Origin: Brachyhypopomus gauderio
Taxonomy: Eukaryota; Chordata; Actinopteri; Gymnotiformes; Hypopomidae
Length of the DNA: 64,000 nt
Reading direction: 5' to 3'
NCBI RefSeq assembly: GCF_052324685.1
Contig: NC_135218.1
Coordinates: 23,060,851-23,124,850, forward strand
The first letter of the stretch is position 1. Every line of letters begins with the position of its first letter. A program made the translations under genes and the position numbers. Of the stretch, positions 10,026 through 64,000 are shown in pieces. The notes under the pieces were generated by a model, which saw only the letters and a program-made list of their open reading frames with translations, was not told where the DNA came from and made no database searches.

Positions 10026-11335
10026 GTGTTGATGATGATGATGATGATGATGATAATACTTTATTATCAGATCAGATCTGAAATTTGTCTTGCATACAAA
10101 CAGTAGCTCCATTAACACATAAGCAACACATAGGACACAAACATTGTACAGTACGTATACCATTTACTCATATTTTAACACCTTTTAAAGTTATAGATTA
10201 AGTTCTTTGTTTAAATTAAGGATTGACTGATGTACAAAAGAATTCTTCAGTCTAACCTTATTGAACCTTGGAACACTATAACGCCGCCCCGATGGGAGAA
10301 GTACATATTCACTCTTCAAAACATGATTAGTACCAAAAATTATGTTTTTAGCCAGCCGCATTGTGTTGCTATGATAAGTGGTCTCATATGATCTTTCTAG
10401 AGGCTGACCCACAATTTTTGAACATATCTTAATCAAATATTTCAATCCTGACTTTACAGATATGGACAAGCAATTATACCACACAGCATTGCAATACTGC
10501 AGAACACTCAAAATAACAGCAGTATAGAACAACAGGAGTATCTGTCGAGTAGCTCCAAAAGATCGGAGGCGACGGAGAAAATAAAGTCTCTGTCTGGTTT
10601 TTTTACAGATGTAGTCGATGTGGTGTTTCCATGATAAGCTAGCATCAATCATCACACCAAGATATTTATAGGACTCCACCTGTTCGATTACCTCATTATT
10701 GATAACAGTGGAGTTAACAGATATTGGTTTCTGGCTGAATACTATTTCTTTTGTTTTCTTTGTGTTTATTTCCAGAGTATTATATTTGCTCCATGTCACT
10801 ACTTTGTTAACACCTTGTTGGTGTAGATCATGGTTGTCCGAGTCATGTAATAATGTTAACAAAACAGTGTCATCTGAGTATTTTAGCACATACTGATTAT
10901 TTGAAGACGAGCGACAGTCATCTGTGGGTAAAAAGAACAGCAGAACTCACACAGCCCTGAGGTGCACCAACATTAGTTGAAATAGCCGAAGAAAGTGTCT
11001 TGTTCACTTTGACTAGCTGGACTCTGTTTGTAAGGAACGAGGCATACCAGTGGATCAAATAAGGGTTCACACCCAGATGGGACATTTTGGAAAGTAAAAT
11101 ACTGGGATGTATTGTATTGAAGGCTGATGAATAATCTAGAAAGAGTGCTCTTGCATAGTTACGAGGTTTATCTAAATGCTTAGTGATTATATGAACCAAT
11201 GTGGCAACAGCATCTTCTGTGCCACAACCTATTTTATATGCAAACTGAGCATATTCTGTATATATTCGTGCATTTTGTAATGTGGGACCACACTTGCATA
11301 GCTGAAGCACTTTACCTGACACTACGCTGACATAA
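10026..11335 (-). mobile_element. Rex1/Babar-type LINE fragment
   Basis: Two minus-strand frames belong to one reverse transcriptase. Frame 11322-10918 has EDAVATLVHIITKHLD, ALFLDYSSAFNTIHP and GAPQGCVSS. Frame 10889-10191 starts with the YSDDT catalytic motif and ends with LLPSGRRYSVPRFNKVRLKN, typical of Rex1. About 5 nt are missing between the two frames (around 10890-10925), which breaks the ORF. The 3' tail is (TCA)n at 10031-10060. The endonuclease region is absent. The element abuts the L2 fragment directly. Confidence 0.85.
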
Positions 11336-14833: not shown

Positions 14834-16869
14834 ATGAGCTCATTCATAGGTGAGTAACACTTGTAAGTAACACTTAAAAGCTAAACGAGCCAATTGAAGT
14901 GACAAACCTGTCTCAGCTGGTGTGTTGGGTGAGACACTGTAATACATAATTTGTGCAATAAGGTGTATGAGTCTATGTCTGTTTTTTTTTTCTTTTCTTG
15001 TATGCTAAACATTTGATCTTCCAGAGCTGACCTTAGTTATTAATCCATTTTCTAAATCAAGTTTTCTGTCGTTGATAGTCTTTGGTCCTGTGCTGTTGAT
15101 ATCCTTCCACTTTAAGGTAAGGTAGTCCACACCAGCATGCAGAAGCCACTCTCACTCGCTAACGCATGATGTCATGACATGTCTCGACACATTCAAATCT
15201 CACTTCTTCTCAAATTTAAGCTTTAAAGTGAAAATTAGGTTGATACTTAACCACGCTAAATCTAGCTTAGCCTCAAACACGTGGATATAATGACCATTTT
15301 TCCACATCTGCGTTTTCCATTTATTGCATATCAACCCAAGTTCAAAGGAACTTTCTAACCCCTTCATACTGTCATTTTTGTGTTTGACCAACCAATGGAA
15401 ATCCTGAGTGACCTCAAGTAAGTAGGCACAGAAGATTGTGCCTCACAGTGAATCCAAAAAATGAAAATATTACTTTTTAAAGGCTCCGCAATGCCTACAT
15501 TTCTCGTAGTGAAATTACTCTTGGTGTGATCTATTAAGTATCGCCGGGGGTGTTTTTGACTTACATTTTCCACTTGACATCACCAGAGTAAAGGACAGAC
15601 AAATAGAGCTTAATGGTCAGCAGTGGTTCTGGGGGAGGAGGTCAGAGGTCAGAGGTCTCACACCTCCTCCCATCTCCTCTTGTAAAGGTCATCCATAAAT
15701 AGCTCTGCACTGTGGACTGTATTTTAGAGATGGCCAATTTAATAGCATTTAAAATGTTTTGGCTGGTTTTTTGTTTGTTTTGTCTGTTGGTTTTTGAGCA
15801 AATTTGTTGTTTACCTTTTTTGCAGACAAGCTGGTCCAATGTGACGTCAGAGTACGAGTCATCTGACTACTCCTCGGCCTCGTCGGTCGATTACGATATG
15901 TTTGCTGTCCGATGTGACAAACTCTCCAACCGAAACTTCCGCTCCTGGTTCCTACCTGTGGCCTACAGCGTCATCTGCTTCCTGGCCCTGGTGGGGAACT
16001 TCCTCGTCATCCTCACCTACATGTATTTCAACCGGATTAAGACGATGACGGACATCTTCCTCCTGAACCTGGCCGTGGCCGACCTGCTCTTTGCCCTCTC
16101 GCTGCCCTTCTGGGTGTCCAGTTTCATCTCCACCTGGCAGCTGGGTCTGCCCCTGTGCAAGGCCATGCACGCCATCTACAAGATCAGCTTCTTCAGCGGG
16201 ATGCTGCTGCTCACCTGCATCAGCGTGGACAGGTACTTCTCCATCACGAAAGCCGTGTCGGCTCACCGCTGCCGCTCCAACGCCGTCCACTACGGACGGG
16301 CGTCCTCCCTGGTCGCCTGGGTGATGGCCATGTTGTTCTCGCTGCCCGAGATCATCTACTCCAACGTCAACAGCAACCAGACGTGCGTGCCGTACGGCAG
16401 CGGGCAGGAGCATCTCCGCGTCTCCGTGCAGGTGAGCCAGATGGTGCTGGGGTTCATGCTGCCCGCGATCGTCATGGTCTTCTGCTACAGCTGCATCATC
16501 AAGACACTTGTGCAGGCCAGGAGCTTCGAGAGGAACAAGGCCCTCAAGGTCATCTTCGCCGTGGTGGTGGTGTTCGTGGCCAGCCAGCTGCCGTACAACG
16601 TGGTGATGGGCCTCAGCACGTCGGCCAGCACCAACTGCGATTACGACAACGGCCTCCTGTACGCCATGGACATGAGCCGCAGCGTGGCCTTCTTACGCTG
16701 CTGTGTCAACCCCTTCCTGTACGCCTTCGTGGGCGTCAAGTTTCGCCACGACCTGCTGAAACTGATGAAGGACCTGGGATGCATAAGCCAAAAACACATC
16801 ATCTACATGCGTGGCAAGCGGAAGTCCTCCGCCGGCCTGGACACCGACACCACCTCGTTCTCCCCCTGA
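14834..16869 (+). CDS. ccr7: C-C chemokine receptor type 7
   Basis: Seven-pass G-protein-coupled receptor; CCR7 guides lymphocytes and dendritic cells toward CCL19/CCL21-type ligands (known for the family). Proposed exons: 14834-14849 (donor GTGAGT), 15079-15116 (donor GTAAGG), 15826-16869; phases 1 and 0 agree and give 365 residues (human 378). The first two exons encode a signal peptide, MSSFIVFGPVLLISFHFK, as in the three-exon mammalian gene. The last exon carries an acidic Tyr-rich N-terminus, NLAVADLLFALSLPFW (TM2), the DRYFSI box (DRYVAI in human), YKISFFSGMLLL, RSFERNKALKVI before TM6, CCVNPFLYAFVG (TM7), FRHDLLKLMKDLGC and the C-terminal end TTSFSP, very like human TTTFSP. A longer single-exon reading starting at 15730 runs through a T-rich intron end with a good acceptor (CCTTTTTTGCAG) and is less likely. 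Confidence 0.92.
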
Positions 16870-22331: not shown

Positions 22332-23323
22332 GTACGCTGCCTCCTCAACACGGTTATCTTAACACAAATATGCCATATTGTGTTAAGAAATGTACTGTAC
22401 AGTTACATATTAAGTATTTGTTGTACTCATGTGTGTCTTAATACTGAAATGTTTCAACCGTTAGCAGCTAGCTAACCTAGCTGGCTAGCTAGCTCGCGCG
22501 CCCATCGGCGTTACTCTGTGCTAACGGCAGCTAGCAGCTAGCCAGCTAGCGCATTATGGCTAAATGTGATTTTGATGATTGAGAGGACATGGCTGGTCTA
22601 GATCTGCAGCACAGCTACTAGCTACCCGGCTAGCTGTTCGGCTAGCCACCGCATTGAACGCAGTGGTTCACTGCCGAGACCCTCGGGAGTTTAGTTTACA
22701 CTTCCTGAACGAGAGTTTAATCGCGCGTCTCCCGGTGAAGGGTCGGTGTCTCCTCGGTCTCCGGTTAGTGGGCTCGCTGCGTGTCTCCGTGTCGAAGATC
22801 ACAGCCCGACCTTGCTGGCTAGCCGGCTAGTGTGCTATAGCAGGCGGGGTTGTGAGATCTCGAACGGGTGAAGTGTTATCAGGATCTGTTCGGTACTCGA
22901 CTTCGTTCAGCGGTGGGTCTGGTTTTGTGCTGTATTCATGTCCCATATTCGGCAGACAACGGACCCGGTGTCGCAGACTAACAGCTTCTCCTCGCTAGCT
23001 GGTGCTCTTAGCTGTCTCGCATTCATTTACTACCGGCATTTTAGTAGCCACGCAAACCTAGCTACGATTTAGTTTTAGTTTCCAGTTAGGTGGGTACTGT
23101 TGAACCCATAGATGACTACTTACCAAATTAAGATAGATGTGGCGATACGAATGATACACCCTAATATTATACTAAATGACCTTCGTTTATCCTGAGTACA
23201 AAATCACCTAAAATGGTTTAGGCAGCGTGACCATCTGTAGTAGCCGCTCAAAAGGGCGGTTTTCAACATATTCTGTGATGACTTTTTCAAGAGTTAACCC
23301 CAAGATGGTGTATTTTAGGCAAT

Positions 23324-23862
23324 ATGGGTGACATCGAAAAGGGAAAGAAAGTCTTTGTCCAGAAATGTGCCCAGTGTCATACTGTCGAGAACGGCGGCAA
23401 GCACAAAGTTGGCCCCAATCTTTGGGGTCTGTTTGGGCGCAAGACGGGGCAGGCGGAGGGTTTCTCCTACACCGACGCTAACAAGAGCAAAGGTAATGCA
23501 TTCACAGAGGTCACATTGTGGGGTCACGGGTTACGAGCAGGAATTCCTCATAAACTGGATAACTTTAACAATGAAAATTCTCCTGAAGGGATTCCAAGGA
23601 ACTCTTGGTTTACCTTATCTGATTCATTTTTTTACATCCCACATTTTGATACAATTGTATGACTAAACAGGCTCTATTGCATTGTTTGAGCTTTCTAAAC
23701 ATGGTTCTCTGCACAGGTGTCATTTGGAATGAGGACACCCTGATGGAGTACTTGGAGAACCCCAAGAAATACATTCCTGGCACAAAAATGATCTTTGCTG
23801 GTATTAAGAAGAAGGCTGAGCGTGCAGACCTTATTGCGTATTTGAAGTCGGCCACGTCATAA
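23324..23862 (+). CDS. cycs: Cytochrome c, somatic
   Basis: Small haem protein of the mitochondrial intermembrane space; carries electrons from complex III to complex IV and triggers apoptosome assembly when released. Two coding exons, 23324-23492 and 23717-23862 (GT-AG, phase 1), encode 104 residues, the usual fish length. Visible landmarks: N-terminal MGDIEKGKK, haem-binding [20 protein letters not shown], and the axial Met in [16 protein letters not shown]. The intron position is that of vertebrate CYCS. The intact intron and promoter show that it is a parental gene, not a retrocopy. It lies a few kb from mir-148, as CYCS does from MIR148A in human. Reading through the intron would give false 112-residue frames. 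Confidence 0.97.
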
Positions 23863-29400: not shown

Positions 29401-29578
29401 CATTGGTTCTTCCTAACGGGGCGGGGCTAAAGCGCATTGCGTGTATTTCACCTTCAGAACCTCCCAGTGCGGCTCGTGGACTGGCTTGGTGTTGGATGGT
29501 TTGGTGTTGAACCTGAGGGCGCACGCCGGGACCCCGCCGGAGTATTAACACCAACAGTTGATGTTTCACAATTACGCA

Positions 29579-32500
29579 ATGAAAGCGAGCGAAGGTGCGT
29601 GGGCACTACTGCCACGTGAACAGGTGAGACACTAACACCACACCGGCTACAGGTGACATGTTGGTCTGCGAGTGACCGCTGAGGGTCTTGTGAATGCAGC
29701 CGATTATCGTAGCTAGTGCATTTGGAAGTGATATGCACTCGTATTTGTGTAATAGCAGTGGACACAAGCTTAGTGCTTTAGAAATAGTCAAGCTTACATT
29801 TGCTACTTATAAAGTGAAAATAAATACGTGATTGTTTGTTTGTGTGTTTATGTAATATGTATAGAGTTGCAAGTAATTGGCTCCATTAACAACCAATTCT
29901 AACCTACTTCTTAGTTACGTATCAGTACCTTTCAGTTTTCCACAATGACCTAAACTGAAAAATGTTTTTAATAATATGTCGTCCATTGTTTGGGGCCCTG
30001 TCGACCTAGTGTTGCCTACAGTTTTGTCCTGTTCATTTCCTGAAGTAGTGATACCTGAAGTAGTGAGGTAGTGCTATACCTGAAGTAGTGAGGTAGTGAT
30101 ATACCTGAAGTAGTGAGGTAGTGCTATACCTGAAGAAGTAGTGAGGTAGTGCTATACCTGAAGTAGTAGTGAGGTAGTGCTATACCTGAAGTAGTAGTGA
30201 GGTAGTGCTATACCTGAAGTAGTAGTGAGGTAGTGCTATACCTGAAGAAGTAGTGAGGTAGTGCTATACCTGAAGAAGTAGTGAGGTAGTGCTATACCTG
30301 AAGTAGTAGTGAGGTAGTGCTATACCTGAAGTAGTAGTGAGGTAGTGCTATACCTGAAGAAGTAGTGAGGTAGTGCTATACCTGAAGTAGTAGTGAGGTA
30401 GTGCTATACCTGAAGTAGTAGTGAGGTAGTGCTATACCTGAAGTAGTAGTGAGGTAGTGCTATACCTGAAGTAGTAGTGAGGTAGTGCTATACCTGAAGT
30501 AGTAGTGAGGTAGTGCTATACCTGAAGTAGTAGTGAGGTAGTGCTATACCTAAAGTAGTAGTGAGGTAGTGCTATACCTAAAGAAGTAGTGAGGTAGTGC
30601 TATACCTAAAGAAGTAGTGAGGTAGTGCTATACCTAAAGAAGTAGTGAGGTAGTGCTATACCTAAAGAAGTAGTGAGGTAGTGCTATACCTAAAGAAGTA
30701 GTGAGGTAGTGCTATGCCTGAAGAAGTAGTGAGGTAGTGCTATACCTGAAGAAGTAGTGAGGTAGTGCTATACCTAAAGAAGTAGTGAGGTAGTGCTATA
30801 CCTAAAGAAGTAGTGAGGTAGTGCTATACCTAAAGAAGTAGTGAGGTAGTGCTATACCTAAAGAAGTAGTGAGGTAGTGCTATACCTAAAGAAGTAGTGA
30901 GGTAGTGCTATACCTAAAGAAGTAGTGAGGTAGTGCTATACCTAAAGAAGTAGTGAGGTAGTGCTATACCTAAAGAAGTAGTGAGGTAGTGCTATACCTG
31001 AAGAAGTAGTGAGGTAGTGCTATACCTGAAGAAGTAGTGAGGTAGTGCTATACCTGAAGAAGTAGTGAGGTAGTGCTATACCTGAAGAAGTAGTGAGGTA
31101 GTGCTATACCTGAAGAAGTAGTGAGGTAGTGCTATACCTGAAGAAGTAGTGAGGTAGTGCTATACCTGAAGAAGTAGTGAGGTAGTGCTATACCTGAAGA
31201 AGTAGTGAGGTAGTGCTATACCTGAAGAAGTAGTGAGGTAGTGCTATACCTGAAGAAGTAGTGAGGTAGTGCTATACCTGAAGAAGTAGTGAGGTAGTGC
31301 TATACCTGAAGAAGTAGTGAGGTAGTGCTATACCTGAAGAAGTAGTGAGGTAGTGCTATACCTGAAGAAGTAGTGAGGTAGTGCTATACCTGAAGAAGTA
31401 GTGAGGTAGTGCTATACCTGAAGAAGTAGTGAGGTAGTGCTATACCTGAAGAAGTAGTGAGGTAGTGCTATACCTGAAGAAGTAGTGAGGTAGTGCTATA
31501 CCTGAAGAAGTAGTGAGGTAGTGCTATACCTGAAGAAGTAGTGAGGTAGTGCTATACCTGAAGAAGTAGTGAGGTAGTGCTATACCTGAAGAAGTAGTGA
31601 GGTAGTGCTATACCTGAAGAAGTAGTGAGGTAGTGCTATACCTGAAGAAGTAGTGAGGTAGTGCTATACCTGAAGAAGTAGTGAGGTAGTGCTATACCTG
31701 AAGAAGTAGTGAGGTAGTGCTATACCTGAAGAAGTAGTGAGGTAGTGCTATACCTGAAGAAGTAGTGAGGTAGTGCTATACCTGAAGAAGTAGTGAGGTA
31801 GTGCTATACCTGAAGAAGTAGTGAGGTAGTGCTATACCTGAAGAAGTAGTGAGGTAGTGATATACCACGATCCGTGTTTTTTAGCCACAGCTGCTGGGAG
31901 ACGTTCTGTATTGCAACCAATATATGAAAATAAATGAACAAAATGCACGTTAAAATAAAAGGTACACATTAGTCTTTTATTTACAGCATATAAAAATAGT
32001 TCTAAAAGTCTGCATTCTATAGCATAAATTGTCCATTTGAATATTCCAACACTGAATATTACTGCAGGTGTGGGTTTGATTGTACAACAGTACACTTAAT
32101 ACTTATTCTCTTTTCCAACATAAAGACAATTTGCTTTGATAAACTCAAAACTGTAACTGTTTATTCATTTAATACTTTATGTATGTAGTTTGGTGCTCTG
32201 TAGTTTGTGGCTTTTCCCCTATTTCCATTATCACTCTTGACCACATTGACCTGGGCAATAAAACCATGGTAGAGAAGGGAAGCGTCACACTGCCATGAGC
32301 ACAGTAATCATCAGGGCGCCAGTCGCTGCTTAATTACACAACCTGATGGAATAAGAACCCGTGAGGGGTTTCTGCAGTGAAGGCCACATACTTCATTTAG
32401 TTAACTGTGAGTCTCAGCCGAGTGAAAAACAAGAGAATGAGTGAATATGCTGGAGCAAACACCCACAGCACGGTGCCCTCGTCTCCGTACGTCCTGTGGT

Positions 32501-32892
32501 GAGTGAGGGTGTGTGCGGAGGATTTAGTCCTGATGCCAACGGTAGGGTGGCATGTGTCGTCATGTAGCCTCAAACACAAAAGCAGTGCATGACAGATCCC
32601 TCGCTCTCTTTCTCTCCTCTTCTAGGAAATCCGTTTGATTGACAGCTTGAGGCAGCAGGACATTGGCCAGGGCGTAGAGTGGGAGGAGATCCGTGTCTCC
32701 TTTCACGAGTGGGCTGGGGAGACGCAGCAAATGAGGGAGCAGGAAGAGGAGAGCTGGAGAAGAGAGGGGGAGGGGCTTGGAAGAGAGGGGGAGGGGCTTG
32801 GAGTCCTGCTAACGCTCGGGAAATGGGAGCAGGAGACCAGGGAGGTCGTGCCTGACTGTGTATCGCAAACCTCTCAGGTACTTCGTATGCAC

Positions 32893-32935
<43 letters not shown>

Positions 32936-33628
32936 ACGCATTGCTATACCCATCTCTATACAGCTCTCACTCCTCTTCTGTGTCACGTCTTTCTCGGAGG
33001 GAAAATAACATAAGATCAGAACCCACTCGGATCTGGGGGTTTACAGACCTCATTAACTGTGTTGAGTATCACCTGAATTTAGCTTAGCAGTAAACATACT
33101 TCACTATAATTACATTATTATTTTTTATATTGCATATATTTGTAGTGATTTGAAGCCCTGTAACTCTCTGGAGTGGATTTAGTTGGACATTGTGAACATT
33201 AATAAGATAAGATCAAATAAGCTGAAAATGTCCTAAAAGGGACTAAACTTTAATATTTGTTTTGTTGTAATTCTTGTTGTAAAAACGAGTAAAGAACAGA
33301 GGTCCGTGACATTTCAAATAAAAATTAAGAAGTTGTTCACAAAATGATTTATAAAATGTTTGCCAAAAAGAATTCTGGATAAAGTGATATGATACCTTAC
33401 ATTTTCTGAAATGCTTTCCAAGCTCTGCTCACACGCCATCAACCACACACACACCACACACCACACGCACAAACACACCACACGCACACACGCATACACA
33501 CACACACCACACACGCACACAGAGCTTAATCACCTTTTTACATTTCAGAGAGCTGAAAACTCCAACACATATATGGGATTCATGGCTGAATCCTCATTCT
33601 GTGGCAAGGTGCACAATATTGACACATG

Positions 33629-33668
<40 letters not shown>

Positions 33669-35540
33669 ACAAAGATTTGAGTGGGCAGTGTTCCTCTACA
33701 CACACACTTCCTTCAGTTGTCTTTCTACACCGTGTTCACAGGGATCTCCCCTTACCCAGAACCCTCTGCTGTCTGCATTGCTTTTTGCCAAGAAGCCAGC
33801 TGCTATGAAAGAGAAGGCGTCCAGCCAGCCCCTGCCTGATTTACAGGTATACCCGCACACTTGTTAGTAAAGCTCTAATCAAAACAGTGTTGGATTGGAT
33901 GTTGTTTTTGATTATAAAGATGTTGCTGTTGTTTTGTGTGCATTTTTATACTGTTGGAAAGAAGCCCTTTATTTAGTTTTAGAAAATATTCTGCAGTTTA
34001 GTAGACTACAATAATAATTGTAATAGGGTTAGGGTTAGGGTTAGGGTTAAGCATCAGTTTGCAAAGCAAGCTCAACAGTATATAATAGTTATAATATCTA
34101 CTAGGTATTCGTTTTTAGTTCGTTTTGGTGAATTTGTGATTGTAATTTTATATTAATACAGCATTTTGTTCCTTTCATGTTCAGTATTATCTGGATGTCT
34201 TAGCGGCCCACATTCCTGAAAGCCCATGTGCACCCCTAGTGGAACCTAGGGAGAATAACAACTACTTGGCGCCTGAACCACACAGGAACACCGAAACAGG
34301 TCCTGTTTCTGGCGCCATGGCACTCGAGCCCCCACACGCTGGCTCTGCTGAGATCATGCAGATGCACAGACACACCTTAATAGCCGACCTTAATGAGTTA
34401 GCCCCACCATTAACACAGTCACTGCCTGACACGTCTCAATTCAAGCAAACGTTTTCTGGTTCAGAGGAACTCGCACAGTCCTTTCTAGACACAAATATAT
34501 GCTCCAGTCCACCGGATAACCTAAATCACATCAATTTAACAGCTTGTGAAGAGATCTTCAACTTCCATACACAGAGAGAAGTTTGCCCAGACCGTACGAG
34601 GACGGCAACACCTGCACACATGCCCTGTCGAGATGAATTTACACAAAAAGACTCCTCACACAACCTTTCATGTCTTGTGGATGGCACAACCACATTCCAC
34701 CTTAAAAACTCTATAGAACATGTAAACCTAGACACTTCCCTAAATGGAGATGACACATTTAACACCAGCCAATCGGAGGACAGAAGGTGCATCCAGTCAT
34801 ATCACACAGAGCTGTTTGATTGGTCCCTCCTCTCAGATGCAGAGGAAGTGCAGTCACATTCTCAGCCATGTGGAACAGAGGCCATCCCACAACAACTAAC
34901 TCCAAACCCCTCACACCCGGCACCATTCTCTGACCCCTCTCAGCATCCGGTCGGCACCGACCCATCGCCCAGAGCCAAAATGGACGCCCAGACATGCCTG
35001 CCAGCTCGCCGTGGTCACCGTAACCGACGCACCTTTCAAGATGAGCAGAACGCCCAAGCCCTGCAACTCCCGCTCAGCATGGACGACATTGTTGGCCTGT
35101 CGGTGGACGCCTTTAACGAGGCTGTTGGCGCTAACGAGCTCAGTCAGGCTCAGCTCAGCCTTATAAGGGACATTCGCAGACGGGGCAAAAACAAAATGGC
35201 CGCCCAGAGCTGTCGAAAAAGAAAGCAAGATAAAATGGTGGATCTAGAGGCCGAGGTGGAGGCTCTCAGAGAGCAGAGCAAATCGAGGAAGAGAGAAAGA
35301 GAGAACCACGTCAAAGCTCTGCGTGACACCAAGCAGAAGCTCAGGAAGCTATACTGTGAGGTGTTCTCCCAGCTGAGGGATGAGTGTGGGAATCCTTATA
35401 GCCCCAAGGAGTACACACTACAGCACAGCAGTGATGGATATGTCTACTTGTTGCCACGCAAAACAAACGTGAACTACCAGAGGAAAACACAGACTCCCAC
35501 ATGTGAACCACCAGAGGAGAACACAGGCTCCCACACGTGA
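29579..35540 (+). CDS. nfe2l2b: NRF2-like CNC-bZIP transcription factor (nfe2l2 'b' paralogue)
   Basis: NRF2 binds antioxidant-response elements with small MAF partners and is normally degraded through KEAP1 and beta-TrCP. Five phase-0 exons: 29579-29623, 32626-32877, 33549-33608, 33742-33846, 34185-35540; 605 residues. Exon 1 encodes 15 residues ending in Gln, as in human NFE2L2. Exon 2 is a Neh2 homologue (LIDSLRQQDIGQG), but DLG reads GQG (29-31), ETGE reads ETRE (85-88), and no Lys lies between them; an in-frame REGEGLG doubling sits there instead. The DSGIS and DSAPGS degrons are not recognisable. The CNC and basic region is strong: LSLIRDIRRRGKNK at about 480-491, with AAQSCRKRK instead of the usual AAQNCRKRK, then a zipper and the SPKEYTLQHSSDG end. 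The last 23 codons and stop come from the 34-bp array. NFE2L2 is preferred over NFE2L3 because of Neh2 and the neighbours mtx2, lnpk and atp5mc3; identity at paralogue level is inferred. Confidence 0.85.
30039..31866 (+). repeat. 28-bp minisatellite in nfe2l2b intron 1
   Basis: About 65 tandem copies of a 28-bp unit containing GTAGTGAGGTAGTGCTATAC. Copies fall into blocks: a variant with GAAGTAGTAG toward the left, a CTAAAGAAG block near 30540-30990, and a long nearly perfect CTGAAGAAG block from about 31000 to the right end. The homogeneous right block points to recent expansion. Confidence 0.97.
34026..34049 (+). repeat. Interstitial telomere-type repeat
   Basis: Four exact copies of GGGTTA in nfe2l2b intron 4, the vertebrate telomere motif. 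Confidence 0.95.
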
Positions 35541-36080
35541 ACCACCAGAGGAGAACACAGGCTCCCACACATGAACCACCAGAGGAAAACACAGGCTCCC
35601 ACACATGAACCACCAGAGGAGAACACAGGCTCCCACACGTGAACCACCAGAGGAAAACACAGGCTCCCACACGTGAACCACCAGAGGAAAACACAGGCTC
35701 CCACACGTGAACCACCAGAGGAGAACACAGGCTCCCACACGTGAACCACCAGAGGAGAACACAGGCTCCCACACGTGAACCACCAGAGGAGAACACAGGC
35801 TCCCACACGTGAACCACCAGAGGAGAACACAGGCTCCCACACGTGAACCACCAGAGGAGAACACAGGCTCCCACACGTGAACCACCAGAGGAGAACACAG
35901 GCTCCCACACGTGAACCACCAGAGGAGAACACAGGCTCCCACACGTGAACCACCAGAGGAGAACACAGGCTCCCACACGTGAACCACCAGAGGAAAACAC
36001 AGGCTCCCACACGTGAACCACCAGAGGAAAACACAGGCTGCCACACGTGAACCATCAGAGGAAAACACAGGCTGCCACAC
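35467..36080 (+). repeat. 34-bp minisatellite across the nfe2l2b stop codon
   Basis: About 18 copies of a 34-bp unit containing GTGAACCACCAGAGGA and CACAGGCTCCCACAC. The array starts inside the last coding exon and continues through the 3' UTR. Three long minus-strand frames (about 211-251 codons, WEPVFSSGG-type repeats) run through it and are by-products of the repeat. Confidence 0.97.
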
Positions 36081-36837
36081 GCCCTTAACATGAAAACCTG
36101 CCATGGCACAACACTTCGATTCTACACACCCAACATAGGAACAAATGTACGTAGAGACACTGGCACACTTCACAAAAGGGAGAACCAGTTTATGGTCAGG
36201 AACACTGAATATAAACTTACCAAAATGTATGCAACAGCATTACGGTAATGCGAGAACCTTTGACAGCCCAAACATTTCTATATGAAGATCAATAACAGCA
36301 TAACAGTAATGGGAGAGTAATCTTACACATAGGCAAACAAGCATAAACACACCCACATAATCGTTCAAGATAACAGCCAGACTTACAGATCACAGTACAA
36401 CAAAGATGCTGGAGTCTGCTGCTGTAGCCACAAACTCACCACAGACATGATGGTCACCTGTGTCACACTGAACGCACATGTTATCGGCTCAAAAAAAAAA
36501 AACCCAGTCCACTTAGTGCCTGTGTCTCAATTTCACGCCTTGTGAACAGGCTGGATCAACCATCCTGCTGTGTGTGTGCACGGGTGGATAGAACACAGAA
36601 TGACACGTACACGCCCAGTTAAATACACACAGAAAGAATGTGTATTACATCAACACGTGCCTCCCTGAAGCTCGTATGAACGTTGTGTAACTATGCATGA
36701 AGCAAAGGTGATATGTTTTCCTCTTTACTGGACAGGACATTTAGGAACATGTGTTTGCAGGATTCATCATGCAACAACCTTAATCTGAGCTTCATTCTGG
36801 CTGTATGGCCTGATAATCTTGCATCTCCTCTTATCAA

Positions 36838-57439: not shown

Positions 57440-60400
57440 TTACCCACTGAAATGGTCACCTTGGATGTCATCACAACAATTGCCCCCCCTGAGATATTTG
57501 TCAGGGGCCGCCACTGGTTTCACCTTCCTCACTTTCCCGTCACGTCCTAGGTATACTTCCAGTACTCTTGCTAACTTCCACTGATTCCGTGGAGCAGAGT
57601 CATCTTGCAGAATAACGATGTCGTTGACCTCTGCATTCCTCCGATCCTTGTTCCATTTCTGCCTAGCTTGAAGATTAAGAAGGTATTCCTTCTTCCAACG
57701 AAACCAGAAGTCATTGGCCAAGTATTGCACCCTGCGCCACCTCTTGTGAAGGTAAAGATCTTCTTTAATGAACCTTCCCGGTGGGGGTAAAATGATCTTG
57801 GACTTCATTGTCAAGATATGGTTCGGTGTGAGAGGCTCTGGACCGTGTGGGTTGTTCAGATGTTCAGTAGTGAGTGGTCTACTGTTTATGATAGCCATTA
57901 CTTCATATAGGAAGGTGCGTAAAGAGGCACTATCAAGTCGCCCTGCTGAATGATCGAGAACAGACATCAGTATACTTCTTACTGTGCGTATTTGCCTTTC
58001 CCAAATACCTCCCATATGGCTTGAAGATGGTGTGTTCATGAGAAACTCACAACCTAGTGCTTTCACTTGCTCTTGGTTCATTCCCCTTGCAGCTTCAATG
58101 AACTCATTTCTTGCACCCATAAAATTGGTACCTTGATCACACCGAATTTGACGAACAGCACCTCTTATAGCAATGAATGAGCGTAAGGCATTAATGAAAG
58201 AATCGGTGGATAGATCCTCGAGCATCTCAATGTGTACTGCTCTAGAACACATGCAGGTAAACAGCAGGCCATAGCGCTTTAACTCTCTTCTCCCATCTTT
58301 CACATGAAATGGTCCAAAGCAGTCCATCCCACAATATACAAAGGGAGGAGTTGCCTCTGTACGCTCTTCTGGAAGGTCAGCCATTCTTTGTTCCTCAGCA
58401 CATCTTCTAAATTTCCTGCATTTAGTACACTTGTAGATGTAAGAAGAAACTGCACCACTGCATGCCAGGATCCACACGCCATTAGACCTCAGCTCATTCA
58501 TGGTCATTCCCCGTCCTTGGTGATGTACTTTCTCGTGATAATGCTTGATGAGCAACATTGAAGTATGGCTATCCTTTGGAAGGATTGCTGGATGTCGTAC
58601 ATGTGGATGAAGAGTAGCATGTGATAAGCGACCTCCCACTCTGAGAATGCCTTGCTCATCAAGAAATGGGTTCAGTCTGTGCAACTTAGTCATATCCCGA
58701 ACATTCGGCATGCTCTGATTCTTGATATGCTGAATTTCCTTGAAAAGGGCCTTCTCTTGAGACATCTTAATAATAGTGAGCTCTGCTTCACTTCTCTCAG
58801 CCAAGCTGGTGGCTTCTCCAGACCTAGATTGTAAGTGTTTAATTTCCTTGATCCATCGCTTAAGCCTGGCAACTGCTTTCACTGCTCTTGTCCAGTCAGA
58901 GAATTTACAGAGCCGATCTTGTAAGGATCTTTCTTCTGTCGCTTGAGTGTCGTGAATAGTTACCTTCCGTAGTTCTGGGTCACTGTCCACAGACTCTCCC
59001 ACCATAACTTCTTCTCTAGGAAGTTCTCTGTTCCAAAGAAATTCCGGTCCTGTGAACCAGTTGGAATTTAGAAGCTGTTCTCCTGTAAGCCCCCTGGAGG
59101 CATGATCTGCCGGATTCTGTTCTGAGGACACATACCTCCACTGTTCAGGCTTTGTGCTTTGTCTGATGCGTTGGATTCGATTTGCCACAAAAAGATGGAA
59201 TCTCTTGGCATCATTGTTTATGTAACCAAGTACAACCTTCGAATCTGTCCAGAAATATTCTTGTAGTGCATTTATCTCCAACTCCTTCTTAAGCATATCG
59301 CTTATTCGCACAGCGACAACCGCAGCTGAAAGTTCAAGTCTTGGGATGGTCATAAATTTCATGGGGGCAACTCTAGACTTCCCCATAACTAGGGAGCAGT
59401 AAATCTCCCCTGTTGCATTGATTCCTCTCAGATATGAACATGCTCCATAGCCAGAAAGACTGGCGTCAGCAAAATGATGTAGCTCATAGCGCTGAACATC
59501 CTTGAAGTCTGATGGCATGTAACATCTTTGGATTTTCACCTCTGACAGATTTTGAAGATCGTGGAGCCAGGCCTCCAATTTAGGCTGGAGATCAACAGGG
59601 AGTGGATCATCCCAACTAACTTTTCCAACACACATATGCTGTAAGACTTGCTTTCCTGTCAGGATTAAAGGTGCTATAAACCCAAGTGGATCATATATTG
59701 AAGCTACTGTTGACAAGACTCCCCTTCTTGTCAGTGGGTTCTGCTTCAGTGTCACTCTAAACTGAAATTCATCCGATGTAACACACCATGACACACCAAG
59801 CACTCCTTCTACATGTGTTTTATCTAACATCATATATGGATCCTCAACCCTTTCAGCATGCTCTTCCTTGGGAATCGTTGCCAAGACTTCATTGCTATTA
59901 GAGATGAACTTGTGCAGTCGAAGTCCGCCTGTCTTACAAATTTCTCTGACTTCTTTCACAATTTGAATGGCGGCTTCTGAGGATGACACACTCAATAATC
60001 CATCATCTACATAGAAGTTCCTTTCAATGAATCTGACTGAGAGATCACTGAAACATCCTCGTCCCACAGCAGCAATATGCTTGAGACCGTAGTTGGCACA
60101 GCCGGGTGAAGAGGCAGCACCAAATAAATGAACTCTCATCCTGTAAACTAAAGGTTGAGAATCTAACTCTCCATTCTCCCACCATAGAAATCGCAGGTAA
60201 TCCTTATCCTTTGCCTTCACATGGAATTGGTGGAGCATGCGCTCTATGTCACATATCACTGCTATCTGACCCTTTCTAAAACGGCAGAGTACGCCCACCA
60301 AGGTGTTCGTTAGCTCAGGACCAGTCAGGAGATGCTCGTTCAGACACGTACCCTGAAACTTCGCAGAACAGTCAAAGACGACGCGTATCTTCCCAGGTTT

Positions 60401-63400
60401 TCTTGGGTGGTAAACCCCGTGATGTGGGATGTACCACACTGGTTGCTTATTAATGTCGTCTTCTGGAACCTGTTCTGCATCACCATTGGCTATGATGTCA
60501 TTCATAAAATTTGTATAGTCCAGGTAGTATTGCTTGCTTCTTCTAAGTTTCTTCTCCAAGCATTTTAAACGGTGTACAGCGCATATCCTATTGTTAGGTA
60601 GACTGGGCCTTGCTTCCTTAAACGGTAGAGGCATCTCATAGTGTCCATCATCCTTAATACATATCTCTTCTTTCAGTTGTGTTAGAAACTGTAGGTCTTC
60701 TTGGGAGATCTGTTTATCTTCTGCAACTGTTTCACAAAAGTCAGACTCAAGTGCCTTAATTATGTCTGGTGGAGCAACCATCTCTCTAACCTGTGTTCTG
60801 CAGACAAAGTGAATCTCGCCCTTCAACTCTGAAGAGGACTGAAGGCTTGGGATCACTGGCATCACCATAACTTGATGACTTACTCCAATTGCGTCTCCAT
60901 AGTCAATGTGAAGGTTGCTACATCCAATGATGCTCCATCCCAAGTCTGTTCTCTGCGCAAAGGGTTGGTTCTCTTCACCATACACAACTTCACGCGGGAG
61001 GAGAGCTTGAGAACAATTGTAACCAATCAAGAGCCCGATCTCACAGCTCTGTTGTGGAGCAATTTCTCCGGCAATATGCTCAAGATGAGGCCATGCTCGT
61101 GCAGTCTCTGGTGTCGGAATATGCTCTCTACTCGCAGGGATGAATTCTCGTGAGTAAGTCACTGGCAGCAGAATACTTTTATCTGAATAGAAACCTCTAA
61201 CTTGTAGACCCATCAACTTGTGGCAAGCTACAACCATACTCTTTGAAGTCATCGTGGAGAGCCTTAACTGGACTGGTTCTTTCCTAACACTGAGAGCTTC
61301 TGCTGTCTCTTCCAGAATGAATGTTGAATCGCTCTGAGTGTCCAAAAGTGCGTACACTAGAATTTCTTGATGTGGTTCACTTGTGGCTGATACCCATACA
61401 GGAATTATTGTGGAAGTATTTGTAAGGCCGTTGTCTACTATGACTCTATTGGACAAAGCATGTGGAGATGTGCTTGGTGTCCTCTCTTGTGATAGTTGTG
61501 CTCCTTCAAGTTCTCCATTGCTTGGCCTTGTGTACTTCCTATCATCTCTAGCACGGTCTTTGTGCAAGCAAGTTGGGTGTCCCTTCTGGCATACCTCACA
61601 GATGCTCCTATGATTGCAGTTCTTGGAACGATGACCTAACCTTAAACACCCAAAACACAATTTGTTCTCCAAGACAAATTTATGCCGCTCTGCTACAGGT
61701 CTTGCACTGAAATTACGACACTTATGGATACTGTGACCTAACATCTCACAGAATGTGCATGTGACAGCTGAACTCTCAACAGTGTGAGCAGCTAATGCTC
61801 TTATCCCTTGGCTCCGTGGTCTCGACGCTCTAAACATCTCAGTCTCACTGAAATTTGAAGTGTGCTTCAATGCGTTAAGGGAAGTAACTGGGTTGCAGGA
61901 GATGTTGGCTTCTCTCGTGAGGAATTTAACAAATTGACTAAAACTAGGAAACATGTTTGTTTCTTCTTCAATTTCTATCACTTTCCTATTCCACATTGAT
62001 GCTAACCAATCAGGAAGCTTAGAAAGCATGTTCTGGTTTTCACTGCAATCATTGAGAATTTCAAGACTCTTGATGTCCTGCATGGCAGCTTCACAACCAC
62101 GAAGGAAGTCTGCAAAATCCCTGAGTGCCACACTGTCCGTTAGGCCTATCTTGGGCCATGCTTTGAGAATGTCTCTGAAGGATTTGGCTATGATGAATGG
62201 ATTTCCGAACCTCTCTTCTAGGACAGACCAGGCAGCACTATAGGCAGCTTCGGTCCCTACTAGGAAATAACACTCAATAGCCCTTTTTGCTGCTCCACTC
62301 ACATACTTACGAAGATAATAAAGTTTCTCAGTGGCGGGAATATTTTTTCGATCTATTAGTGTCTGAAAGGATACTTTCCAGTCATTGTAACAGAGTGGGT
62401 CACCAGTAAAAATGGCTGGCTCTGGAATTGGCAGACGACTCATGCTGATCGATTCGGCCAGCATCCTTGCGAGGGATGTAATGCTGTCATGCTGTGGGCT
62501 TACTACGACTTGTTGTGGAGGATGATATTGGAAAGGGTGGTTACCGTGTCCAGGTACCTCTTTCCAATCCTTTGATTCACATTTACATCGTACATCTTCA
62601 AATTCCCTTTCACAAGCATAATTCTGTGAGTATACTTGCATTCGTGCCTTAGCAGCATTTAACTGTTTGACTGTTTCTAGACGCTCCAGCTCTTTACGCT
62701 TTTCATCTAACATTTTCTGTCTTGCTGCATTTTCAATCTCTAACTGGGCTTGTAGTTTAGTTTCTTCCTGTTCTCTCTCTAAGCGTCGTCTTAAACTATC
62801 TGCTGTTTGTTGAGCTATTATCCTTTTATTTTCAGCTTCAAGGGTTTGAATTTCTCCTAATTGGCGTTCTTGATCTTGCAAGACTTGTAAGGTGGCCTGA
62901 TTAGCAGCAACCTCAGCAGCTGCCTCTTGCCGCTTTAAAAATGAAGATATGGAAGTAACATTTGAACTGCTCTGAGAACAAGTAGAATTTGACCGTCTGG
63001 AAATAGAACTTGACCCAATTGAAGAAATGGATGAGATGACTGACTTAATGTCATTCAAATCCAGTGGCTCCCCTTCTGCCTCTTCTTTTCTTTCCATCCA
63101 ATCCAATATTTTTGATGCAACCTTTCTTGTAACAGTTTCACATTTATCCATTCTACGGCGCATGTCATTATTTGGAACCTTAATTCTGCGCAGATCTTCA
63201 TACACATGGTTCAACTCTGTTGCAGCATTGCTTACCTGGGAAATTAAGTCTTGCAGCACATTGTCTGTGCAAGGACCGCTCACCGTTTGCATGGCATCCT
63301 TTACAAGAACTCCCCACTTCTCGTACTGTACCTTAAAACGACGTTCAAGTTCCATGAATCTTTTATGATGCAGTTCTTGCCCTTTTGCAGTTAAGGTTCG

Positions 63401-63577
63401 GATTCTTTGACTTCTACGAGGCTCACTTTGCTCGTCAATATGCGACGCATCATCGGTCTTTGGGTGCATTTCTGCCTCTACTTGGGGATTTTCTTGTTGC
63501 GCTGTCTGCTGAGATGAAGGTTTGAGAGCAGCTACCACCATCTCATTCTGACCGTCACTTCTGAGGGATTCTGCCAT
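57440..63577 (-). mobile_element. BEL/Pao LTR retrotransposon, Gag-Pol frame
   Basis: Fossil virus-like element of the BEL/Pao family. A single frame of 2,045 codons looks whole. From N to C terminus its parts are a charged coiled-coil Gag-like region, a DUF1759-type Gag segment, zinc knuckles, an aspartic protease domain, reverse transcriptase, RNase H, an integrase with zinc-binding head and catalytic core, and a C-terminal DUF5641-like tail. No matching pair of long terminal repeats could be seen inside the window; the upstream one may lie past the right edge. The undisturbed frame suggests a young copy. It appears to lie within or directly beside the hAT element to its left. Confidence 0.93.
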
Positions 63578-64000
63578 TAGTCTAAATTTAATCCTTTGTC
63601 TTAATTATACTGCTACTGTAGAATATACTACCTTGAACACAGAATAATCTGAATAAAACACTGCAACGAACAGTTTCCTGAATAAAATATGATAAATCGA
63701 AATGCTTACGACCGAACAACAAACAACACTTAACTGTGACAATTAGTTATCTTAATTTTTACAATCACTCTAACAGACGAGCATGAATGTACACCAGCAT
63801 TCGATTTTAACGATAAAATGAATGAAGTCCTTATTCACAATATTAACGTCTTTTAACAGCAGTTTGACAAACTTATAGCACTTAATTTCTTGTACTCCGT
63901 AGTACGCGCCGCTCTTGCATGACGTGGATGAAGCCTAGAGATGGCATACGGAGGATACGACTTTCGCTGGGTGTTCACTGCCTGCACCGCGCAGTCGAGT
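63578..64000 (-). other. Region upstream of the BEL/Pao frame
   Basis: AT-rich near the frame and CpG-richer toward the window edge. It probably belongs to the element's leader or terminal repeat, but I could not show a repeat with the left flank. Confidence 0.35.

Follow-up and report, generated by a model that had tools for sequence, protein, structure and literature searches.

Altered KEAP1-docking motifs in nfe2l2b, an Nrf2 paralogue of the gymnotiform fish Brachyhypopomus gauderio

A stretch of 64,000 nucleotides from the electric knifefish Brachyhypopomus gauderio, a gymnotiform (contig NC_135218.1, positions 23,060,851 to 23,124,850 of the forward strand; hereafter the window) contains nfe2l2b, the gene of the NRF2 paralogue Nrf2b, and its sequence points to a lineage-restricted loss of the motifs by which NRF2 docks on KEAP1. 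In mammals, ETGE is described as a tight hinge and DLG as a weak latch, both being required, which present a lysine-rich helix for ubiquitylation (PMC5339396). In the Neh2 domain of B. gauderio nfe2l2b, encoded by exon 2, the latch reads GQG (D29G and L30Q in human numbering) and the hinge reads ETRE (G81R). Seven lysines between the two motifs are reported for human NRF2 (PMC5068245) and for mouse Nrf2 (PMC6155405), and every Nrf2 protein is said in a review to carry at least two there (PMC6155405). An earlier note on this DNA had described a factor without KEAP1 handles or ubiquitin-acceptor lysines. Its account of both handles is borne out codon by codon, and its statement that no lysine lies between the sites is off by one: a single lysine remains close to the hinge site, with no other in the inter-motif stretch (Table 1). 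The distance from DLG to ETGE is 56 in B. gauderio nfe2l2b versus 49 in Electrophorus. Thus, where a KEAP1-controlled NRF2 has DLG, ETGE and at least two inter-motif lysines on a helix, B. gauderio nfe2l2b has none of these features.

It might be asked whether an intact version of the domain is encoded elsewhere. When six NRF2-family proteins were searched against the window by tblastn (E up to 1), the Neh2 parts of four matched exon 2, two of them weakly (E 0.04 and 0.06), the other two gave no Neh2 match, and no Neh2 part matched anywhere else in the window. An alternative exon 2 with intact DLG and ETGE, sought by this search, was not found there. A phmmer search of exon 2 against solved structures returned a single match at chance level.

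How unusual are these replacements? Twelve KEAP1-docking positions (24, 26, 27, 29-31, 34, 77 and 79-82; human numbering transferred via a marsupial NRF2) were scored in two sets of database proteins. One set consists of 210 other NFE2L2 proteins (nfe2l2a, tetrapods, others and unnamed entries included), of which 117 came from the best 120 of 210 matches to a Neh2 query, and so lean toward an intact Neh2, and 93 from the best 120 of 2194 matches to a whole nfe2l2a query. The other set consists of 45 nfe2l2b-type proteins from the best 120 of 205 matches, taken as such from their names or because they ranked higher than the NFE2L1 entries; a handful carry a different source name, and P0116, which ranked lower, was included on account of its name. 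Thirteen of the 45 were excluded because not all twelve positions were readable, leaving 32; P0044 and P0116 deviate at position 24 only via odd 5′ gene models. Among the matches listed, to which all the following counts refer, every one of the 210 other NFE2L2 proteins reads WQDDLGRDETGE at the twelve positions, with DLG and ETGE kept. B. gauderio nfe2l2b reads RQDGQGWEETRE, six of the twelve being changed, and three Electrophorus entries (P0003, P0004 and P0005, from two species) read WQDGLGWDETGE, with two changed. Both motifs are kept in all 28 non-gymnotiform nfe2l2b proteins that could be read; DLG is lost only in the four gymnotiform entries and ETGE only in B. gauderio. Electrophorus nfe2l2b is therefore half-way, with GLG for DLG, tryptophan at R34 and ETGE intact: D29G and R34W are common to both gymnotiform genera, and W24R, L30Q, D77E and G81R are additional in B. 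gauderio. Fewer than two inter-motif lysines are found, in both protein sets, only in the same four gymnotiform entries, which have one each. The nfe2l2a of B. gauderio is a separate protein (P0246) that keeps DLG, ETGE and DSGLS. Among the titles and abstract openings listed in a literature search, subscription papers apart, none dealt with Nrf2b of gymnotiforms or with a fish Nrf2 that has lost DLG or ETGE.

Rates of change were compared by domain in eight matched species on a fixed, assumed tree of otophysan relationships, with gapped columns dropped (leaving 59, 203 and 141 columns for nfe2l2b); the species are few, and changes are treated as independent. From the otophysan ancestor, Neh2 of nfe2l2b has accumulated 1.03 substitutions per site in B. 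gauderio and 0.92 in Electrophorus electricus versus 0.21-0.37 in the five other otophysans, so that the gymnotiform domain has run 2.5 to 4.8 times further, with 0.58 on the shared gymnotiform stem. Neither bZIP plus Neh3 (0.37 and 0.40 in the gymnotiforms versus 0.27-0.38) nor the middle part (0.82 and 0.91 versus 0.80-1.12) shows a comparable rise; within nfe2l2b the increase is confined to Neh2. Parsimony changes, counted as gymnotiform to other, are 35 to 64 in Neh2 of nfe2l2b versus 146 to 581 in the rest of the protein (Fisher p 0.001; p 0.017 versus bZIP alone). Neh2 of nfe2l2a is little changed (0.09 and 0.11 in the gymnotiforms versus 0.05-0.11), and its parsimony counts of 5 to 18 versus 97 to 495 in the rest do not differ (p 0.56).

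The expected effect of these replacements can be judged from human tumours. A published list of tumour mutations classes W24R as gain of function and records that D29G inhibits degradation through KEAP1; both are identical to the replacements in B. gauderio. Other replacements at L30, R34 (R34G/P/Q) and G81 (G81S/D/V) are likewise given there as weakening KEAP1 control (PMC5872633). In a pan-cancer study, 11 of 12 hotspot sites, W24, D29, L30, R34 and G81 among them, went with raised expression of NRF2 targets (PMC10552358). With both motifs altered, the 210 other NFE2L2 proteins unchanged and these tumour matches, escape from KEAP1, which the earlier note had proposed, is well supported by sequence, and B. 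gauderio Nrf2b likely evades KEAP1-driven degradation. It is conceivable, and in our judgement improbable, that some control persists, ETRE binding KEAP1 weakly and the remaining lysine being ubiquitylated: E79, T80 and E82 are kept, E79 and E82 are named as KEAP1 contacts (PMC5339396), and one inter-motif lysine is left. However, human G81S, G81D and G81V are recorded as mutations that alter, resist or block control by KEAP1 (PMC5872633), the latch is gone too, and predicted models of low confidence would put the site where a helix ends in nfe2l2b versus between two bridge residues in nfe2l2a. In these AlphaFold2 models the bZIP helices are confident in both B. gauderio paralogues. The inter-motif stretch of nfe2l2a is predicted as one unbroken helix of 35 residues (38-72; block pLDDT, the predicted local distance difference test, 82-92), and that of nfe2l2b as a helix of 25 residues (47-71; block pLDDT 55-73) that breaks off before another helix begins (79-92). 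As both models have a low mean confidence (53.5 and 52.2), the helix difference lends weak support.

Docking aside, the features of a CNC-bZIP factor are kept. As the earlier note had it, the reading frame is open, across all exons and with standard splice borders, and the DNA-binding domain is intact, with the CNC region, basic region and zipper all present. One qualification concerns the zipper (window 35226-35351): at position 20 after CRKRK, leucine is found in 206 of the 210 other NFE2L2 proteins versus none of the 44 nfe2l2b proteins with a readable zipper (G, S, R, I and others), the heptad place of this residue being judged from leucine spacing. The nfe2l2b proteins as a group may thus be characterised by a weakened or re-partnered zipper. 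The idea that the zipper is damaged specifically in B. gauderio was for this reason mostly rejected; among the 44, B. gauderio alone has glutamine at zipper position 0. Much the same holds for the Neh6 degrons. Neither DSGIS nor DSAPGS occurs in B. gauderio nfe2l2b, as had been noted before, yet none of the 19 nfe2l2b proteins checked has DSGxS, which all 15 nfe2l2a or other NFE2L2 proteins checked possess, so that loss of the beta-TrCP site is not specific to gymnotiforms. The proposal that this factor escapes beta-TrCP is therefore true yet not special, as the 19 nfe2l2b proteins show, and a loss of beta-TrCP control special to the B. gauderio gene was rejected. A DS[A/G]SVGS stretch, perhaps left over from the second degron, is found in four of the 19, all cypriniform (P0019, P0021, P0024 and P0041), and in none of the gymnotiform or characiform proteins checked.

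What has happened to this gene? We lean, with a modest degree of confidence, towards the view that nfe2l2b, lacking DLG and ETGE and with its DNA-binding domain intact, likely escapes KEAP1 and would compete constitutively with Nrf2a for antioxidant-response elements, at which it would activate only weakly. KEAP1 control was most likely dismantled stepwise, latch first and hinge later. The gymnotiform ancestor would have lost the low-affinity latch; the resulting ETGE-only Nrf2b would still be held by KEAP1 and not be seated for ubiquitylation; and the high-affinity hinge would have been lost afterwards, on the Brachyhypopomus side. Such losses would be tolerable because Nrf2b was already a weak activator or repressor, a property known from zebrafish alone, and the KEAP1-gated response to stress can stay with Nrf2a, the gene of which is intact in B. 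gauderio. Zebrafish Nrf2b is described as lacking Neh4, activating reporters weakly and repressing nrf genes at the basal level (PMC6155405, PMC5068245, PMC3840143), and the competitor role suggested for B. gauderio Nrf2b fits these properties. By the hinge-and-latch model, Electrophorus Nrf2b, with GLG and ETGE, should bind KEAP1, be poorly degraded and act as a decoy, and B. gauderio Nrf2b, with both motifs lost, should not bind KEAP1. It is possible, and we offer this tentatively, that after the latch was lost an ETGE-only Nrf2b sat undegraded on KEAP1 and shielded Nrf2a, as it still would in Electrophorus, and that loss of the hinge then gave a KEAP1-blind, always-on competitor at antioxidant-response elements in Brachyhypopomus.

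Several observations weigh against the competitor hypothesis. Dimerisation and binding to antioxidant-response elements are not assured in a protein without leucine 20 of the zipper, despite the kept bZIP. The bZIP of nfe2l2a is also faster in gymnotiforms (0.19 in P0246 and 0.17 in P0264 of E. electricus versus 0.05-0.14, with most of it, 0.12, on the stem), so that a rate shift is not unique to Neh2 of nfe2l2b. W24R, L30Q and G81R are seen in one species, probably in one assembly, and a single lysine can suffice for degradation according to PMC5068245. The same data also fit plain relaxation, in which gymnotiform nfe2l2b is dispensable and decaying, Neh2 first, and KEAP1 control has been lost without regulatory consequence. 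We regard this as a serious though unlikely reading. The six of twelve docking positions changed in B. gauderio correspond to about the frequency across Neh2 (49% identity to Colossoma), as expected without constraint; the tail and stop codon now lie inside a minisatellite; and, among the best 120 of 205 matches to the nfe2l2b query, no protein is named siluriform nfe2l2b, siluriform nfe2l2a being among the matches listed for the nfe2l2a query, which suggests that nfe2l2b may have been lost in Siluriformes. Against decay, however, stand the open exons with their standard borders, the 80% identity of bZIP plus Neh3 between two gymnotiforms, which is not accelerated, and the state of Electrophorus, in which only two of twelve docking positions are changed although Neh2 is 53% identical to Colossoma, so that its docking sites still look held. 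That the whole pattern is an artefact of sequence or gene model is very improbable: the matching database protein may share the assembly of the window and so provides no independent check, but Electrophorus entries, which come from different contigs and species, show D29G and R34W as well, and the tblastn search found no other Neh2 exon in the window.

It is useful to set B. gauderio nfe2l2b beside known systems. Zebrafish Nrf2b is the same gene by name and similarity, keeps the CNC-bZIP and has a poorly conserved Neh6; its Neh2, however, is described as conserved (PMC6155405), whereas the Neh2 motifs of B. gauderio are lost. The readable cypriniform nfe2l2b proteins keep DLG and ETGE, none of the proteins compared being named zebrafish. 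The nearest known precedent is that of Neoaves, a vertebrate lineage in which KEAP1-NRF2 binding is reported to be broken in the germ line (PMC7234996). There it is KEAP1 that is broken and the activator NRF2 that is freed; in B. gauderio, by contrast, it is the substrate that has changed, in a duplicate, the main copy nfe2l2a being intact. Tumour NFE2L2 mutants (W24R, D29G, R34x and G81x) are hit in the DLG and ETGE regions at residues that are also changed here, with two identical replacements (PMC5872633), but they are somatic and arise in a strong activator, whereas several changes are fixed together in what is presumably a weak activator in B. gauderio. Finally, the Neh2 region is reported to be missing from two other CNC factors, NF-E2 p45 and Nrf3 (PMC6155405), which would thus not be held by KEAP1 in this manner; the B. 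gauderio gene differs in being nfe2l2b and in still encoding a Neh2 remnant.

The identity of the gene rests on name and similarity ranking rather than on a tree. Exons 1, 2, 4 and 5 together are identical to the B. gauderio nfe2l2b database protein P0002 across all 591 residues; the next-closest proteins are those of Electrophorus (54-61%), followed by characiform nfe2l2b (45-48%), both above the NFE2L1b entries among the best 120 of 205 matches. The gene is thus closest to otophysan nfe2l2b and not to nfe2l2a or NFE2L1. The probable exon 3 resembles, by eye, the characiform residues that follow ETGE. Since the stop codon and tail are coded by minisatellite units, the length of the tail may differ between individuals. 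Intron 1 is largely filled by another minisatellite, of about 65 near-identical 28-bp copies (window 30057-31866).

Table 1. Features of nfe2l2b in the window, with positions counted from its first nucleotide.
Feature	Position	Strand	Basis
Exon 1, coding, 21 residues, GT donor after	29561..29623	+	Exact match to P0002; last 15 codons also an unprompted candidate in an ATG-to-donor scan
Exon 2, Neh2 domain, 84 residues	32626..32877	+	AG/GT borders, 84 stop-free codons; tblastn of relatives
Arg at the human W24 position (W24R)	32650..32652	+	Reading of exon 2, alignment
GQG replacing the DLG latch motif	32665..32673	+	Reading of exon 2, alignment
Trp at the human R34 position, also in Electrophorus	32680..32682	+	Alignment
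21-bp in-frame tandem duplication, REGEGLG twice, inter-motif stretch	32759..32802	+	Repeat and alignment analysis
Sole lysine between the two motif sites	32821..32823	+	Exon residue 66, context GKWEQETRE, four residues before ETRE (exon residue 70)
ETRE replacing the ETGE hinge motif	32833..32844	+	Reading of exon 2, alignment
Probable exon 3, 20 residues, skipped in database isoform X2	33549..33608	+	In frame, AG/GT borders; not in P0002
Exon 4, 35 residues	33742..33846	+	Open frame, match to P0002, tblastn
Last coding exon, 451 residues and stop	34185..35540	+	Open frame, match to P0002, tblastn
CNC-bZIP (Neh1), DNA binding and dimerisation, basic region RDIRRRGKNKMAAQSCRKRK	35034..35345	+	Pfam bZIP_Maf, 54.4 bits; phmmer to solved NRF2 bZIP 7x5e, E 1.5e-21
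Neh3 motif VYLLPR	35442..35459	+	Sequence reading; human counterpart given as VFLVPK (PMC5068245)
34-bp minisatellite, 18 copies, starting inside the last exon	35467..36081	+	Stop codon and roughly 23-24 terminal residues encoded by its first units

Elsewhere in the window, upstream of nfe2l2b, lie an open frame of a rhodopsin-family receptor (15703-16869, + strand) and a cytochrome c exon (23282-23662, + strand). A LINE-like frame at 10191-10946 (- strand) shows weak similarity to reverse transcriptase (RVT_1 barely at the cut-off), and an open frame of 2054 codons at 57440-63604 (- strand), with a Pao retrotransposon peptidase and two further domains, marks an element of the BEL/Pao type whose main frame is open.

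No feature of NRF2 is better known than its control by KEAP1, and none of the 210 other NFE2L2 proteins listed shows a change at the docking residues. A constitutive Nrf2b, by analogy with that of zebrafish, would put a brake on antioxidant-response elements or set their baseline rather than be a runaway activator. With this control dismantled in one paralogue, an intermediate state still alive today and the sister gene intact in the same species, the gymnotiforms provide a natural experiment on the roles of hinge and latch, which also informs how a stress switch could turn constitutive via residue changes that are found in human tumours.
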